Source of the DNA: Fibrobacter succinogenes
Lineage (GTDB): Bacteria; Fibrobacterota; Fibrobacteria; Fibrobacterales; Fibrobacteraceae
DNA length: 33,601 bases
Assembly: GCA_902781185.1 (NCBI GenBank)
Contig: CACZII010000012.1
Coordinates: forward strand, 1 to 33,601
Direction: 5' to 3'
The notes under the pieces were generated by a model. That model searched no databases. It was not told where the DNA came from and worked only from the letters and a program-made list of their open reading frames with translations. The position numbers and the translations under genes were made by a program. Of this stretch, positions 4,629-30,070 are shown piece by piece. Numbering within the stretch: the stretch's first letter is position 1; the number at the start of each line of letters is the position of its first letter.

Positions 4629-4641
4629 TTGCAAGCGCAAA

Positions 4642-4714
4642 ATGTGGAATGTGAAATGTGAGGTGTGAAATTATCACACTAAGGCTCAATTTCTAATTCC
4701 ACATCCGTAACTTC
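4642..4714. repeat. Heptameric TGTG-rich inverted repeat between convergent genes
   Basis: The left arm is four tandem 7-mers (ATGTGGA, ATGTGAA, ATGTGAG, GTGTGAA). An imperfect reverse complement lies at ~4690-4714 (TTCCACAT ... TTCACAT). The array fills the gap between the convergent LysM-like lipoprotein gene and hisB. It can fold into a hairpin in RNA from either side. Related arrays occur at 8208-8236 and 9272-9333. Confidence 0.65.
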
Positions 4715-7094: not shown

Positions 7095-8207
7095 ATGGAA
7101 CGATTCAAGCCGCGTGATATGTTCGTGGAAGCAGGCTATGGCCCGAACTTCGCAGACCAGCTTTTGCAGAATGCCTACAGCAAGCTTTTTGAGGGCGACC
7201 CCATCGACGAGCGCATCTGCTTTGACGCCTCCGACGACATGGCCTACATCGTAGACATCGGACACGACGACATCCGCTCCGAGGGTATGAGCTACGGTAT
7301 GTTCGTCACCGCCCTCACCGACCACCCGGAACTTTTTGAGAAGCTCTGGCGTTTTGCCAAGCGCTACCTGTACAACGCGGGCGGTCCGCACCAGGGTTTC
7401 TATTCCTGGCAGGTTTCCACCACCGACTTTTCCATGATGGACCCGGGATCCGCCCCTGACGGCGAGGAGTACATCGCAGCGGCGCTGCTGATTGCCGCCA
7501 AGCGTTTCGACCGTGACGACTATAAGCAAGAGGCCGTGGAGCTTATCAACATGATGCGGCACAAGCAGACCAACGAGCTGGTGGGCCCCATCATCGACCC
7601 CAAGATGGGAATCGTTAGGTTCTCCCCCGTGCTGGGCAACGACTTCACCGACCCCAGCTACCACACCGTGGCCTTCTACCGCATGTTCGCGGAAGCCACC
7701 GGCGACAACGAATGGAACGAGATTGCCAAGCGGAGCATTGAATACCTGACGAAGGCGGCTCACCCGGAGACGGGCCTCTGCGCCGACTACTCTGAGTTTG
7801 ACGGCACACCCAAATCCATGCCCTGGTTCCCCGAGAGCAACTGCTTCAGCGGAGACGCCTGGCGGGTGGCCCTGAACTTGAGCCTGGACTACACGCTGTT
7901 CCGTGGTGACGAGCGTGAGAAGGAAATCTGCGAGAGACTGCTGAACTATTTCGAAAGCAAGCGCCCGTACCTGGCGGACTACTCCGTAGACGGAAGCCCC
8001 TTTCCGAGACAAGGGCGCGAGGCCACTCCGGGAGTGATTGCCATGAACGCCGCTGCCACCCAAGTGCTCCCTGCCGAGAGCCCGCTGGTACATGGGTTTG
8101 TGCGTGACCTGGCGAACCTGTCTGTGCCTTTCCGTTTCTGGCGCTACTACGACGGAATGCTCTACATTATCGGGATTCTCGCCACCGCCGGAAAGATTGA
8201 ATTTTAG
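7095..8207 (+). CDS. Glycoside hydrolase family 8, reducing-end xylose-releasing exo-oligoxylanase-like
   Basis: 370 residues with no signal peptide, so cytoplasmic. SEGMSYGMF (~61-69) holds the GH8 general-acid Glu. PDGEEYIAAALLIAAKRF corresponds to the conserved second block, and FSGDAWRVALNLSLDY contains the Asp expected to be the catalytic base in the Rex branch of GH8. Rex enzymes (EC 3.2.1.156) remove one xylose from the reducing end of xylo-oligosaccharides by inversion; the length and block order match them better than GH8 endoglucanases or chitosanases. The ATG at 7095 has GGAG 8 bases upstream; the in-frame sequence before it runs into the G-rich element. Fibrobacter degrades xylan, so a cytoplasmic enzyme finishing imported oligosaccharides is plausible. 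Activity is inferred by family only. Confidence 0.85.
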   Translation: MERFKPRDMFVEAGYGPNFADQLLQNAYSKLFEGDPIDERICFDASDDMAYIVDIGHDDIRSEGMSYGMFVTALTDHPELFEKLWRFAKRYLYNAGGPHQGFYSWQVSTTDFSMMDPGSAPDGEEYIAAALLIAAKRFDRDDYKQEAVELINMMRHKQTNELVGPIIDPKMGIVRFSPVLGNDFTDPSYHTVAFYRMFAEATGDNEWNEIAKRSIEYLTKAAHPETGLCADYSEFDGTPKSMPWFPESNCFSGDAWRVALNLSLDYTLFRGDEREKEICERLLNYFESKRPYLADYSVDGSPFPRQGREATPGVIAMNAAATQVLPAESPLVHGFVRDLANLSVPFRFWRYYDGMLYIIGILATAGKIEF

Positions 8208-8236
8208 ATGTGAAGTCTGGAATGTGTGGTGTGAGG
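8208..8236. repeat. Heptameric TGTG-rich repeat, second copy
   Basis: Tandem 7-mers (ATGTGAA, GTCTGGA, ATGTGTG, GTGTGAG) begin right after the GH8 stop codon. This is the same family as the arrays at 4642 and 9272 but with only one arm, so it has no obvious hairpin alone. Confidence 0.5.
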
Positions 8237-8250
8237 TTACACTCAGCGTC

Positions 8251-9271: not shown

Positions 9272-9333
9272 AAGTGTGTAGTGTGTGATGTGGGATGTGA
9301 AATTACACATTCCACACTACACATTTCACATTA
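9272..9333. repeat. Heptameric TGTG-rich inverted repeat, third copy
   Basis: The left arm is tandem 7-mers (TGTGTAG, TGTGTGA, TGTGGGA, TGTGAAA). The right arm is the complement in the same 7-base rhythm (ACACATT, CCACACT, ACACATT, TCACATT). Together they can form one long imperfect hairpin just past the lipoprotein stop at 9267, in the gap before the convergent argJ. Confidence 0.65.
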
Positions 9334-9348
9334 ATTTCAAGTTCTCAG

Positions 9349-9442
9349 TTTTAGCGCGAGCGGTCGTCCGTGAGCCGCAAGCGACTCGTACCAACGAGTC
9401 GTGGCGGCGAGAGCGAGGGCTGACCGGAGAAGTTTCACACCA
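9349..9442. repeat. Structured ~95-bp element, copy A
   Basis: Begins TTTTAGCGCGAGCGGTC. The inner hairpin CGACTCGT-ACCA-ACGAGTCG (9382-9401) sits inside an outer stem GCCGC (9374-9378) / GCGGC (9404-9408). It is followed by GAGAGCGAG and CCGGAGAAG. It is in tandem with copy B at a period of ~94. Confidence 0.75.
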
Positions 9443-9538
9443 CTTTAGCCCGAGCAGTCGTTACCGTGAGCAACAAACGCCTCGTATTAACGAGGCGTGG
9501 TTGCGAGAGCGAGCGCAAGCCGGAGAAGCTATCCCCGG
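9443..9538. repeat. Structured ~95-bp element, copy B
   Basis: Begins CTTTAGCCCGAGCAGTC. The inner hairpin CGCCTCGT-ATTA-ACGAGGCG (9478-9497) lies inside the outer stem GCAAC (9470-9474) / GTTGC (9500-9504). The base pairs differ from copy A, but pairing is preserved in both stems. Confidence 0.75.
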
Positions 9539-9556
9539 TTTTAGCGCGAGCGGTCA
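9539..9556. repeat. Partial third unit of the ~95-bp element
   Basis: TTTTAGCGCGAGCGGTCAT repeats the opening of copies A and B. It stops 2 bases before the argJ stop codon, so the tandem array is cut at the gene boundary. Confidence 0.65.
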
Positions 9557-9558
9557 TT

Positions 9559-10713
9559 TTAAGTCGTGTATTCCGCGTTGATCTTTACGTACCCGTAGCT
9601 CAGGTCGCAGGTGAAGGCGCTGGCAGAGGCCTGGCCGATGTTCAACACCAGAGTCACCTTGTATTCACGCTGACGGACAACTGCGTGGAGGGCCGCCGTC
9701 TGGGCCTCGTCCAGAGGCAACGGGCGACCGCCTTCCAGAACCTTCACGTCACCGAAAAACAGGTCGGTGTGTTCGGCCACCATGTTGCAGCCGCTAGAAC
9801 CAGCGCTGCTGAGGATACGTCCCCAGTTGGGGTCTTCGCCGAACATGGCGCACTTGGCCAGATTACTGGTACCGATGAAGCGAGCCATGCGGAGAGCTTC
9901 TTCGTGGCTTTCGGCCTTCTCTATGCGCAGTTCAATAAGCTTGGTAGCACCTTCGCCATCACGCACAATGTCTTTTGCGAGGCTCTGCATAATGAGCATC
10001 AGGGCCGCACGGAACTCGCCCTGTTCGCTCAAGCTCAAGTCTTCGTAACGGAGCCCGCTCATGCCGTTGGCAAGCAAGATGCAGGTATCGTTGGTGCTGG
10101 TGTCGCCGTCCACAGTAATGGCGTTGAAGGAATCCGCAATGTCGGCGCGGAATTCCGCAAAGAAGTCGCCCGAGCCCTTGCAGGCGCCACCGATGGTCAC
10201 CACGCCCTTCTCGGTGTGAATTTCAACAGCATGGCTCTTGAGCGCAAGGTCGGTGGTGAGGATAGCACGACCAAATTCTTCGGAAGCGTCGGCGTGGAGC
10301 TTTTCCACCAGCTTAGGAATGCCGGCCTCGATTTTGTCCATGGGCATCAGGTGGCCAATCACGCCGGTGCTGCAGACCAGCACGCTCTTGGGCGTAAGGT
10401 TCAGGGCCTCTTCGGTAAGGGTAGCCATGCGTTCGGCATCCTTGTAGCCCTGCTCGCCGGTACAGGCATTGGCGTTACCGCTGTTCACCACCACGGCCGT
10501 TGCAAAATGGGCATGCTCCAGGGCAGCCTTGTCGTAGAGCACCGGAGCGGCCTTCACCTTGTTGGTGGTAAACACCGCAAAACAGCGGGCCGCCTTCTCG
10601 CTCTTGAGAAGCGCCATGTCGGCATTGCCGCTGGCCTTGATACCTGCACAGATTCCAGATGCCGTGAAGCCCTTGGGGGAACACACACCGCCATTTTCCA
10701 ACAGATTGTACAT
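9559..10713 (-). CDS. argJ: ArgJ: ornithine acetyltransferase / N-acetylglutamate synthase, autoprocessing segment missing
   Basis: 384 residues versus ~400-410 usual. ArgJ transfers acetyl from N-acetylornithine to glutamate in arginine synthesis. Family blocks are clear: SPKGFTASG, TNKVKAAPV, VVVNSGNANACTG, ILTTDLALK, IGGACKGSG, ITVDGDTSTND (199-209) and TCDLSYGYVKINAEYTT. Normal proteins have about 21 residues after KGSG that include PNMATML, whose Thr is both the self-cleavage site and the nucleophile. Here KGSG (179-182) joins directly to DFFAEFRADIADSFN, which aligns with the helix beyond that segment. The reading frame stays open. As written the enzyme should neither cleave nor catalyse the usual reaction. 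SD CAGGAG lies 6 bases before the ATG at 10713; upstream in-frame starts lack one. Divergent from greA. Confidence 0.85.
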   Translation of the reverse strand: MYNLLENGGVCSPKGFTASGICAGIKASGNADMALLKSEKAARCFAVFTTNKVKAAPVLYDKAALEHAHFATAVVVNSGNANACTGEQGYKDAERMATLTEEALNLTPKSVLVCSTGVIGHLMPMDKIEAGIPKLVEKLHADASEEFGRAILTTDLALKSHAVEIHTEKGVVTIGGACKGSGDFFAEFRADIADSFNAITVDGDTSTNDTCILLANGMSGLRYEDLSLSEQGEFRAALMLIMQSLAKDIVRDGEGATKLIELRIEKAESHEEALRMARFIGTSNLAKCAMFGEDPNWGRILSSAGSSGCNMVAEHTDLFFGDVKVLEGGRPLPLDEAQTAALHAVVRQREYKVTLVLNIGQASASAFTCDLSYGYVKINAEYTT

Positions 10714-13840: not shown

Positions 13841-13927
13841 CGTGAGCAAAAAGCGACCCGTATTAACGGGTCGCGTTTGCGAGAGCAAAGCCCTTCCATA
13901 GAAGCACCACCAGTTTTTAGGCTTTGC
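13841..13927. repeat. Structured ~95-bp element, copy D
   Basis: The inner hairpin GCGACCCGT-ATTA-ACGGGTCGC (13853-13874) sits in the outer stem GCAAA (13846-13850) / TTTGC (13876-13880). It ends with TTTTTAGGCTTTGCGGT, equivalent to TTTTAGCGCGAGCGGT in the other copies. GCAAAGCC (13884-13891) could also pair with GGCTTTGC near 13920. Confidence 0.7.
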
Positions 13928-13941
13928 GGTAATGATGAGTC

Positions 13942-13978
13942 CGAGTGGTCTCATAATACTTCTTGTATCGTAGGCTCT
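13942..13978. repeat. ~38-bp direct repeat, first copy
   Basis: GAGTGGTCTCATAATACTTC and the bases after it match 14074-14108 (GAGCGGTCATATAATACTTC and on) with a few differences. In both places it follows the TTTTAG...GGT tail of the structured element, so this flank belongs to the longer repeat unit at this locus. Confidence 0.5.
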
Positions 13979-13990
13979 GCCGAAGATGCC

Positions 13991-14082
13991 CCGTGAGCGA
14001 CAAGCGACTCATATTAATGAGTCGTGGTCGCGAGAGCGAGCGCATTCCGGAGAATTTCACAAGGTTTTAGCGCGAGCGGTCA
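13991..14082. repeat. Structured ~95-bp element, copy E
   Basis: The inner hairpin CGACTCAT-ATTA-ATGAGTCG (14005-14024) sits in the outer stem GCGAC (13997-14001) / GTCGC (14027-14031). It is followed by GAGAGCGAGCGCA, CCGGAGAA and TTTTAGCGCGAGCGGTCAT. The spacing from copy D is 151 bases. Confidence 0.75.
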
Positions 14083-14090
14083 TATAATAC

Positions 14091-14126
14091 TTCTTGCATT
14101 GTGGACTCATGTCCACAATGCAAGAA
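14091..14126 (-). repeat. Perfect 16-bp hairpin downstream of ftsZ
   Basis: Arms 14091-14106 and 14111-14126 are perfect reverse complements around a 4-base loop (TCAT on the plus strand). There is no T-run after it on either strand, so it looks like a processing, blocking or repeat hairpin rather than a classical terminator. Confidence 0.6.
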
Positions 14127-14160
14127 GGGATCACCCAGGCAGGGAGACCCAGGTGATCCC
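14127..14160 (-). terminator. Hairpin in the ftsZ 3' region
   Basis: 9-bp stem GGGATCACC / GGTGATCCC (14127-14135 with 14152-14160) with a 16-base loop. It abuts the 16-bp hairpin on one side and leads to another hairpin at 14173 on the other. It probably contributes to ending or protecting the dcw mRNA, but lacks a U-tract. Confidence 0.45.
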
Positions 14161-14172
14161 TCGTGTTGTGGT

Positions 14173-14192
14173 GGATACGCTTGCGCGTATCC
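14173..14192 (-). repeat. Perfect 8-bp hairpin right after ftsZ
   Basis: GGATACGC / GCGTATCC with a 4-base loop, 21 bases past the ftsZ stop. First of three consecutive hairpins reading out of ftsZ. Confidence 0.55.
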
Positions 14193-14213: not shown

Positions 14214-15749
14214 CTAAAAAGAATCCAGCTTAAAGCCACCGTTGCGGAGGAAGGCCGGGACATCGTAATCCACGCCGCTGGTCTTCAAGGAACCTTCGGC
14301 ATAGTTCGTGTTACGGGGTTCTTCCACTTCGCGGGCAGGCATTTCGGTCATGGTCTGACGGGTATAGGCCGGAGTACCATAGTCACCGTTGGAAAGCTGG
14401 TCCATGTCGGCAATGCCGGGCATCTCTTCCGTCTCGGGGAGAGTGGCCGTGGCAATACCCTGGGGCATCAGCTTCTCTTCGAAGGCCGGGGCCTGGGCGT
14501 TGAACTGTGCAGAAGCAAAGTCCATAGCAGGGGCCTGAACTTCAGCCTGGGGGACAGCACCCATGGGAACCGTCTGGGCCAAGGCAACGAAGTTGGTAGC
14601 TGTCGGACGCGGCGTAGCTGCCACAGGCTGGGGAGCCTGCTGGTAGTTGCTGGGTGCGCCGATGGAGTTAACCACATCCATAGACTGAGTTGCAGCAGGC
14701 ACATCAGAAGCGCTTGCAAACATGGGCTTCACGTCAGAAGAAGCAGATGTTCCACCGCAACCGGTAGCAATCACGGTAATGCAAACCTGATCGCCCAATT
14801 CCGGAATCAGGATGTCGCCGATGATGATGTTCGGGTCACCCATCTCGCCCACGGCTTCATAAATGTGTTCCATGGCCTCATCGTATTCCAGCATGGAGAA
14901 GTTCTCGCCATGAGAAACGTTCACCAGCACGCCAGTAGCGCCTTCCACGTTCACGTCTTCCAGAAGCGGAGAAGAAAGGGCCGTATCCACAGCCTTGATG
15001 CCGCGGCCTTCGCCTTCAGCAATACCGGTACCCATCAGGGCGGAACCGCCATTGGACATCACCGTCTTCACATCGGCAAAGTCCACATGGATAAGGCCAT
15101 GGTTGAACATGATACCACAGATGCTGCGGACGGCATTACCGAGAATCTCGTCAGTGAGCTTGAAGGCTCCATCCAATGTCATCTTCTTGTCGGTTTCTTC
15201 CACCACCTTCATGAGCTTCTTGTTGTCCACCACGATCATGGTGTCCACATTTTCACGCAGAGCCTTGATGCCCTTTTCGGCATTACGAGAACGGACAGGA
15301 CCTTCGTGACGGAAGGGCTTGGTCACCACGGCAACGGTGAGGATACCCAGCTCGCGAGCAACGGCACCTACCACCGGAGCGGCACCCGTACCTGTACCAC
15401 CGCCCATACCGGCGGTAATAAAGATCATGTCGGCGCCCTTCATGGCTTCCTTCAGGTCTTCCACGTTCTCTTCGGCAGCCTTGCGGCCAATTTCGGGCTT
15501 AGCACCCGCACCGAGAGTCTTCGTGGTCTTCTGGCCGATGGCAATCTTGTGGTCTGCCTTGCTCAAGTCCAGAGCCATGGCATCGGTATTGACGGCGTAG
15601 TATTCCACGCCTTCAATGTTCATGCCGACCATGCGGTTCACAGTGTTACCACCGGCACCGCCCACGCCGAAGACCTTGACCTTCGCGTTGTTGAGGGTTG
15701 AGTCATCCATCAGGATGTGTGAGGTTGGGGTTATGTCGAATTCACTCAT
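14214..15749 (-). CDS. ftsZ: Cell division protein FtsZ
   Basis: 511 residues, longer than the ~380-400 typical. FtsZ is the tubulin-like GTPase that forms the Z-ring. An N-terminal tail of ~20 residues precedes VKVFGVGGAGGNTVNRM. The GTP signature GGGTGTG is at 116-122, and the T7 loop GLIHVDFADV (218-227) supplies the catalytic Asp. The globular part ends near 340, followed by a ~150-residue Pro/Gln/Ala-rich linker. The C-terminal peptide DVPAFLRNGG (496-505), which binds FtsA and other partners, is followed by six extra residues (FKLDSF) instead of the usual short basic end. SD GGGAG lies 8 bases before the ATG. Last dcw gene, 36 bases after ftsA. Confidence 0.98.
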   Translation of the reverse strand: MSEFDITPTSHILMDDSTLNNAKVKVFGVGGAGGNTVNRMVGMNIEGVEYYAVNTDAMALDLSKADHKIAIGQKTTKTLGAGAKPEIGRKAAEENVEDLKEAMKGADMIFITAGMGGGTGTGAAPVVGAVARELGILTVAVVTKPFRHEGPVRSRNAEKGIKALRENVDTMIVVDNKKLMKVVEETDKKMTLDGAFKLTDEILGNAVRSICGIMFNHGLIHVDFADVKTVMSNGGSALMGTGIAEGEGRGIKAVDTALSSPLLEDVNVEGATGVLVNVSHGENFSMLEYDEAMEHIYEAVGEMGDPNIIIGDILIPELGDQVCITVIATGCGGTSASSDVKPMFASASDVPAATQSMDVVNSIGAPSNYQQAPQPVAATPRPTATNFVALAQTVPMGAVPQAEVQAPAMDFASAQFNAQAPAFEEKLMPQGIATATLPETEEMPGIADMDQLSNGDYGTPAYTRQTMTEMPAREVEEPRNTNYAEGSLKTSGVDYDVPAFLRNGGFKLDSF

Positions 15750-28132: not shown

Positions 28133-28241
28133 TAGCCTAAAAAACTACGGTTCCGTAGTGAATAAACAGCCTTGGATGGGCTTACGAAATAGGGAAAGTT
28201 TGATAGCCGAGGGCGCCTGTACAGAATAACCCGACAGAGCC
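28133..28241 (-). repeat. ~109-bp direct repeat, copy 1, with terminator-like hairpin
   Basis: About 12-13 differences from copy 2 (29963-30070). On the minus strand it begins at the stop codon of the GH-like gene and ends with ACTACGG-AA-CCGTAGT (28159-28144) followed by six T's, a convincing Rho-independent terminator. Copy 2 changes two A-T pairs in this stem to G-T, still pairing in minus-strand RNA. Confidence 0.8.
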
Positions 28242-29962: not shown

Positions 29963-30070
29963 TAGCCAAAAAACTACGGTTCCGCAGCGAATAAACAGCC
30001 TGGAAGGGGCTTACGAAACCCAAAAAGTTTGCTAGCCGAGGGCGCCCGTACAGAATAACCCGACAGAGCC
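29963..30070 (-). repeat. ~109-bp direct repeat, copy 2
   Basis: Same orientation as copy 1. On the minus strand it ends with GCTGCGG-AA-CCGTAGT (29988-29973) followed by T6. It lies upstream of the GH-like promoter and downstream of the ORF6N pseudogene, so the pair brackets one gene. Confidence 0.8.

Follow-up and report, generated by a model that had tools for sequence, protein, structure and literature searches.

What is the repeated element that lies against the stop codon of argJ in Fibrobacter succinogenes, does selection act on its fold, and does it belong to a known class of bacterial repeats? The window analysed here, i.e., the whole stretch of 33,601 nucleotides of contig CACZII010000012.1, contains four copies (A, B, D and E) at two loci, which a first-pass annotation made from the letters alone had described as a two-tier hairpin preserved by compensating base changes. 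All four copies were recovered, all on the + strand and with the inner and outer stem sequences originally given, and the hairpin pattern from which they were recognised is expected 0.00 times in shuffled windows.

Architecture of the unit and the folding strand

The unit extends from GTGA to GGTC over about 90 nt and is composed of two domains, P1 and P2. In P1, a 5-bp outer stem is separated by an AA/G internal loop from a 9-bp inner stem, which carries a TATTAA loop region, found in 131 of 139 units (its outer T and A are fixed by the search pattern itself). After GAGA follows P2, a stem of 8 positions whose loop bears an extra hairpin in some copies. The segments GTGA, TATTAA, GAGA and GGTC are conserved between and around the stems, and the P1 and P2 types reassort freely among units. 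The two-tier hairpin is therefore real and equals P1, but the original description was incomplete in that the second covarying stem domain was overlooked: the right-hand flank GAGAGCGAG, thought to be fixed, is the start of P2, and in copy D it reads GAGAGCAAAGCC with a corresponding change in its partner (GGCTTTGC). A further stem (CCG/CGG) that would enclose the entire unit was rejected, as its 5' bases vary in the alignment.

At the argJ locus, unit A (9370-9459, + strand) comprises GTGA at 9370-9373, P1 at 9374-9408, GAGA at 9409-9412 and the P2 arms at 9413-9420 and 9448-9455, and ends in AGTC (9456-9459), while unit B (9466-9555, + strand) comprises GTGA at 9466-9469, P1 at 9470-9504, GAGA at 9505-9508 and the P2 arms at 9509-9516 and 9544-9551, and ends in GGTC (9552-9555). 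The two units are in tandem at a spacing of 96, consistent with the period of about 94-96 noted before, and are preceded by the 5' tail remnant of a further unit, which ends TTTTAGCGCGAGCGGTC (about 9341-9365, + strand; nhmmer partial match 9341-9367, blastn match 9348-9365). The gene abutted by unit B is argJ (9559-10713, - strand; Pfam ArgJ, E 8.1e-120), with the complement of its stop codon, TTA, at 9559-9561. The array had been interpreted as cut off 2 bases before this stop codon. Instead, GGTC at 9552-9555 is the normal 3' end of the element, it is separated from the TTA by 3 nt, and nearness to a stop codon is the rule across the repeat family rather than a peculiarity of argJ. A different kind of intergenic repeat (TGTGAAATGTG/CACATTTCACA) is found at 4640-4673, 8206-8239 and 9272-9332, and forms an inverted pair just upstream of the argJ array.

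The second locus contains unit D (13842-13930, + strand), whose P2 (GCAAAGCC/GGCTTTGC) has no G.A mismatch, and unit E (13993-14081, + strand). Copy E is flanked by a direct repeat of about 36 nt (81%; 13942-13977 and 14073-14108) made of the tail plus the TAATACTTCTTG... flank, which is present as a single copy in the relative L176. Between copy E and ftsZ (14214-15749) lies the ftsZ-DE RNA (Rfam RF02985, 83 bits; 14124-14192, - strand), adjoined by a long perfect hairpin at about 14083-14127. Although it too is a structured RNA situated at the 3' end of a gene, its sequence and fold are different and it is located on the ftsZ coding strand; it is a neighbour of copy E and not a relative. Unrelated to the element is also a 103-nt direct repeat in two copies (88%) at 28139-28241 and 29968-30070, 1.8 kb apart. 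Outside the window, an insert of about 80-85 nt recurs inside the TATTAA loop of P1 at L007 (on contig C259 of the same genome), L195 and L229. It has a hairpin similar to AGAAACAAG-TATA-CTTGTTTCT with TATT on both sides, occurs also upstream of units in L109 and L141, and represents either another repeat nested within the element or an extended subfamily.

The suggestion of selection on the fold, initially derived from four copies, is supported by covariation far above the shuffled background; across the family the two-part shape has withstood hundreds of paired substitutions. Among 31 copies from the genome that contains the window, in a plain MAFFT alignment, 89.4% of the cells at paired positions are paired compared to 68.7% in shuffles, double changes are present at 18 of the 22 pairs, and the covariation score is 0.544 compared to 0.166. 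For 97 distinct copies, drawn from the window and from named Fibrobacter contigs and aligned by fitting to the model, the corresponding values are 90.9% compared to 68.4%, 20 of 22 pairs, and 0.522 compared to 0.148, with slid controls not exceeding 0.083; the copies share kinship and the cell counts are not independent events. The two central positions of P2 are occupied by G.A followed by A.G in 62 copies and by two standard pairs in 30, with no mixed case, and a second tandem G.A is present in 11 copies.

The fold had been proposed to exist in RNA or as cruciform DNA, and the latter part of this proposal does not hold. The stems read on the + strand contain 40 G.T but only 5 A.C (16 and 2, respectively, when the most variable pair is left out, P = 0.0013), and the tandem G.A modules are a feature of the + strand only. 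Because a cruciform would treat both strands alike, this asymmetry indicates that one strand folds, as RNA or as single-stranded DNA, and that the abutted gene is encoded on the other. Folding energies computed with RNA parameters give no clear preference and are -38.0 kcal/mol for the + strand and -36.6 kcal/mol for the - strand (the former is better in 47 copies, the latter in 39), whereas DNA parameters favour the + strand 70:15.

Distribution and placement at gene ends

A blastn search with copy B gave 34 matches in its own genome, a 2.2-Mb MAG that is 72% complete, and a covariance model built from the 31 copies gave 55, with unit B as the top match (115 bits). Extended to relatives, the model scan returned many copies with strong covariation at gene 3' ends, as the first-pass annotation had anticipated for a structured repeat family. 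Among 151 sampled genomes of the phylum, the element is carried by 65 of the 67 genomes listed for the genus and by six genomes of two sister genera (1-10 matches each), and it was not found in the remaining genomes of the sample; most of the genomes are MAGs. Near-complete genomes of the genus contain 69, 64, 49, 44, 36, 32, 25, 21, 20, 18, 15, 7, 2 and 0 copies. When the exact pattern was searched in GTDB, the named contigs among the matches listed all belonged to Fibrobacter or to other Fibrobacteraceae or Fibrobacterales MAGs, and the same pattern had no match among IMG/VR viral contigs. An Rfam search of the window and the loci, even at E up to 1, gave no match to the units apart from a single weak one (23.5 bits at a gathering threshold of 114) near a unit in L006, so that no Rfam family explains the units, and we found no description of this repeat in the literature; the first-pass annotation had likewise not recognised it as a named family.

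Genes around the element were called with a purpose-made caller trained on the loci, whose calls are approximate; 133 distinct arrays were placed, 104 of them with both neighbours called. The GGTC end faces an opposite-strand gene with its stop codon toward the element in 93 of the 104 arrays, mostly at a distance of 0-4 nt, and in 63 of these 93 the flanking genes converge, whereas in the other 30 both flanking genes are oriented against the element. The loci were picked for carrying the element, with the exception of the argJ set, which was chosen independently of it. In a test that does not depend on the caller, an opposite-strand frame of at least 60 codons ends -4 to +6 nt from GGTC in 67 of 123 arrays, compared to 53 of 1224 shifted positions (P = 8e-46) and to 8 of 122 at the element's other end (P = 4e-17). 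Among the arrays outside this strict test, several face opposite-strand tmRNA, RNase P RNA or tRNA genes, beyond their terminators (in L058 the element is located directly at the tmRNA end), and some have the stop codon in place behind a frame of fewer than 60 codons. Overlap between an array and a called gene never exceeds one half, and the arrays are exclusively head-to-tail, never of mixed orientation. The stop codon is TAA in 58 of 67 abutted genes compared to 49% of other genes (P = 3e-9), and comparison of the array flanks yielded no consensus past the stop codon. Among ten further proteins encoded by abutted genes are EF-P, SAM synthetase, a class I tRNA synthetase, a carboxyltransferase and two dehydrogenases, one for isocitrate/isopropylmalate and one for lactate/malate.

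Gain, loss and change at orthologous sites

The stop codon of argJ was compared in 30 genomes: a unit is present in eight, a solo tail in one, and nothing or fragments in the others, and the ArgJ C-terminus is constant (INAEYTT*) whatever the state of the array. In one genome without the element (L245), a different tandem array with a unit of about 75 nt (TTTTGTCGTTCGTCGG...) is found behind the argJ stop, and related sequence occurs in L236. Elsewhere, the orthologous loci L158 and L161 differ by exactly one unit, L136 and L243 differ by a unit versus a solo tail, and in place of copy E of the window L176 has only a solo tail. Many units are preceded by a 5' tail remnant at the same spacing. 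These comparisons indicate that orthologous sites acquire, lose and duplicate units. The idea that solo tails are empty attachment sites present behind other stop codons was rejected, as four GACCG matches were found there, none of them tail-like, compared to five in the control.

Changes between orthologous copies affect 74 of 394 positions in stems versus 39 of 414 unpaired positions, and 28 of the 41 changed pairs are double changes. The notion that nearly every change is compensated by its partner needs qualification in this respect: the changes are matched, but the inner stem evolves partly by block replacement (in L152/L164 six pairs are swapped at once) and not by one compensated mutation at a time. 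In three retained orthologous pairs the unit has changed at 4 of 272 positions and the flanks at 57 of 850, which suggests purifying selection in place, although the case is weakened by a probable recombination junction at another locus. There, L046 and L166 are nearly identical across the element and in the sequence immediately before it, and 71% identical in the abutting gene, as if recombination had occurred at the element's 3' end.

Nature of the element

The comparison with REP, REPIN and BIME sequences is based on PMC3733652, PMC2817692 and PMC12306157. Like these, the Fibrobacter element is a dispersed, clade-specific hairpin repeat with variable stems and fixed unpaired motifs; it is extragenic, palindromic and numerous within a genome (55 matches in its own genome, up to 69 in others) where REPs have tens to hundreds of copies, and it is located near gene ends, as known REPs also are (PMC12306157). 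The differences are equally clear. A REP unit is a single hairpin of 20-40 nt, whereas the Fibrobacter unit has about 90 nt and two covarying stem domains; the unpaired end tags of REPs are GTAG or CGTC (PMC3733652), whereas the present unit ends in GTGA and GGTC; and the REP-associated RAYT is absent from the copy-richest Fibrobacter genomes, although CGTC palindromic repeats also occur without a dedicated transposase (PMC3733652). The tandem G.A module, the strictly head-to-tail arrays, the fixed orientation and the placement of the end so near a stop codon (mostly 0-4 nt) are likewise unlike REPs. MITEs and palindrome-associated elements of the IS200/IS605 type are also short non-coding hairpin repeats, but the Fibrobacter element has no terminal inverted repeats or target duplication that we could see, and Y1 is missing from the rich genomes.

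The search for a partner protein covered the Y1 transposase, reverse transcriptase and integron integrase families. Y1 transposase (Y1_Tnp) is present in 20 of 61 genomes of the genus and absent from the copy-rich G053 and G037, reverse transcriptase (RVT_1) is present in 2 of 16 genomes, none of them among the richest, and the TIGR02249 cut-off for integron integrase is reached in 0 of 16. Y1/RAYT transposase, reverse transcriptase and integron integrase were therefore rejected as partners, their presence being inconsistent with copy number. Because the defining size, tag and RAYT of tagged REPs and the defining features of attC sites are lacking, the element is REP-like in kind and a member of neither family, and a host function at gene ends is the main rival to its interpretation as a mobile repeat.

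Our preferred interpretation, to which we give about an even chance, is that of a REP-like, non-autonomous repeat dispersed in Fibrobacter genomes. This interpretation is favoured by the very uneven copy number (0-69) within a single clade, by the variation among presence, absence and solo tail at the argJ stop with an unchanged ArgJ C-terminus, by the one-unit differences and the tail remnants described above, by the one-strand covariation, by the free reassortment of P1 and P2, and by the occurrence of known REPs near gene ends (PMC12306157). Units would enter by a transposition-like process at short AT-rich spots of gene ends, such as TAA stop codons and U-tracts, with the folded single strand as the feature that some protein would recognise. 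Arrays might then lengthen or shorten by recombination between the repeated tails, and copies would be kept at gene ends since nothing is broken there, perhaps with a mild benefit. Against this interpretation, none of the three protein families searched provides a mobiliser, a short AT-rich target by itself gives no reason for using the stop codon over other TTA in the same spacer, the low rate of change in the unit relative to its flanks in some orthologous pairs suggests selection in place, and no target-site duplication could be defined. A more novel reading, which we consider less likely than not, is a new mobile or domesticated nucleic-acid element that is directed in one orientation to functional 3' ends (stop codons and tmRNA/tRNA ends) and folded on the antisense strand, with the tandem G.A modules as recognition features of a putative partner protein.

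Alternatively, the + strand could be a host-functional RNA, located in the 3' region of the upstream gene in convergent pairs and in antisense transcripts elsewhere, whose nascent fold would limit or mark transcription just before it runs antisense into the abutting gene. The folding strand is indeed antisense to that gene, convergent pairs are enriched (63/104 arrays versus 116/536), the element occurs at protein genes as well as past the terminators of tmRNA, RNase P RNA and tRNA genes, and the three orthologous pairs point to conservation of the unit. We nevertheless consider this possibility unlikely: a U-tract was looked for after P2 on the + strand and none was seen, which speaks against an intrinsic terminator on this strand, 30 arrays have no upstream gene in the required direction, a terminator need not sit within 4 nt of a stop codon, and presence varies among close relatives, with one near-complete genome having 0 copies.

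Rather improbable is a role on the - strand, where the element would belong to the 3'-UTR of the abutting gene as a terminator, an exonuclease barrier or a translation brake, roles of the kind suggested for REPs near stop codons in E. coli. Ribosome stalling has been reported for E. coli REPs that lie no more than 15 nt from a stop codon (PMC12306157); the distance of 0-4 nt in most arrays is within this range, and by analogy the element might have such an activity. The P1 inner stem on the - strand is often followed by a T-rich stretch (e.g., TTTGTT), but many copies lack this stretch, an ordinary terminator is often still present farther downstream (L220, L239 and L241), the element is located past the terminator at stable RNA genes, and the G.U and tandem G.A evidence points to the other strand.

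Template switching between the arms of a quasi-palindrome during replication would change both arms without selection on the fold, and the preponderance of double changes between orthologous copies and the block-replaced inner stem are what it would produce. It leaves three features unexplained, namely the G.A/A.G module, which is all-or-none and lacks self-complementarity, the excess of G.T over A.C on one strand, and the conserved GTGA, TATTAA, GAGA and GGTC between the stems, and we consider it very unlikely as the source of the pattern. An integron-like origin is scarcely credible: attC sites are likewise structured, vary in sequence while the fold is kept, follow directly after the stop codon of a gene and fold on the strand opposite to it, but they require an integrase (none over the cut-off here), core sites (RYYYAAC/GTTRRRY is not kept, and AAC/GTT at the foot of P1 is freely replaced) and one stem instead of two, and the Fibrobacter copies are scattered over the genome with no cassette arrays seen.

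Few bacterial repeats combine such strong covariation with such tight positioning. The unit boundaries, the fold and the pairs of occupied and empty sites make the ideas of mobility and function testable. Mobility would call for a targeting mechanism that selects stop codons in one orientation, and to our knowledge no such mechanism has been described for a REP, a MITE or an integron site. If functional, the element would serve the whole genus at the ends of housekeeping genes, including argJ and the genes for EF-P, SAM synthetase, a class I tRNA synthetase, tmRNA and RNase P RNA, in Fibrobacter, an ecologically important genus of fibre-degrading gut and rumen bacteria.
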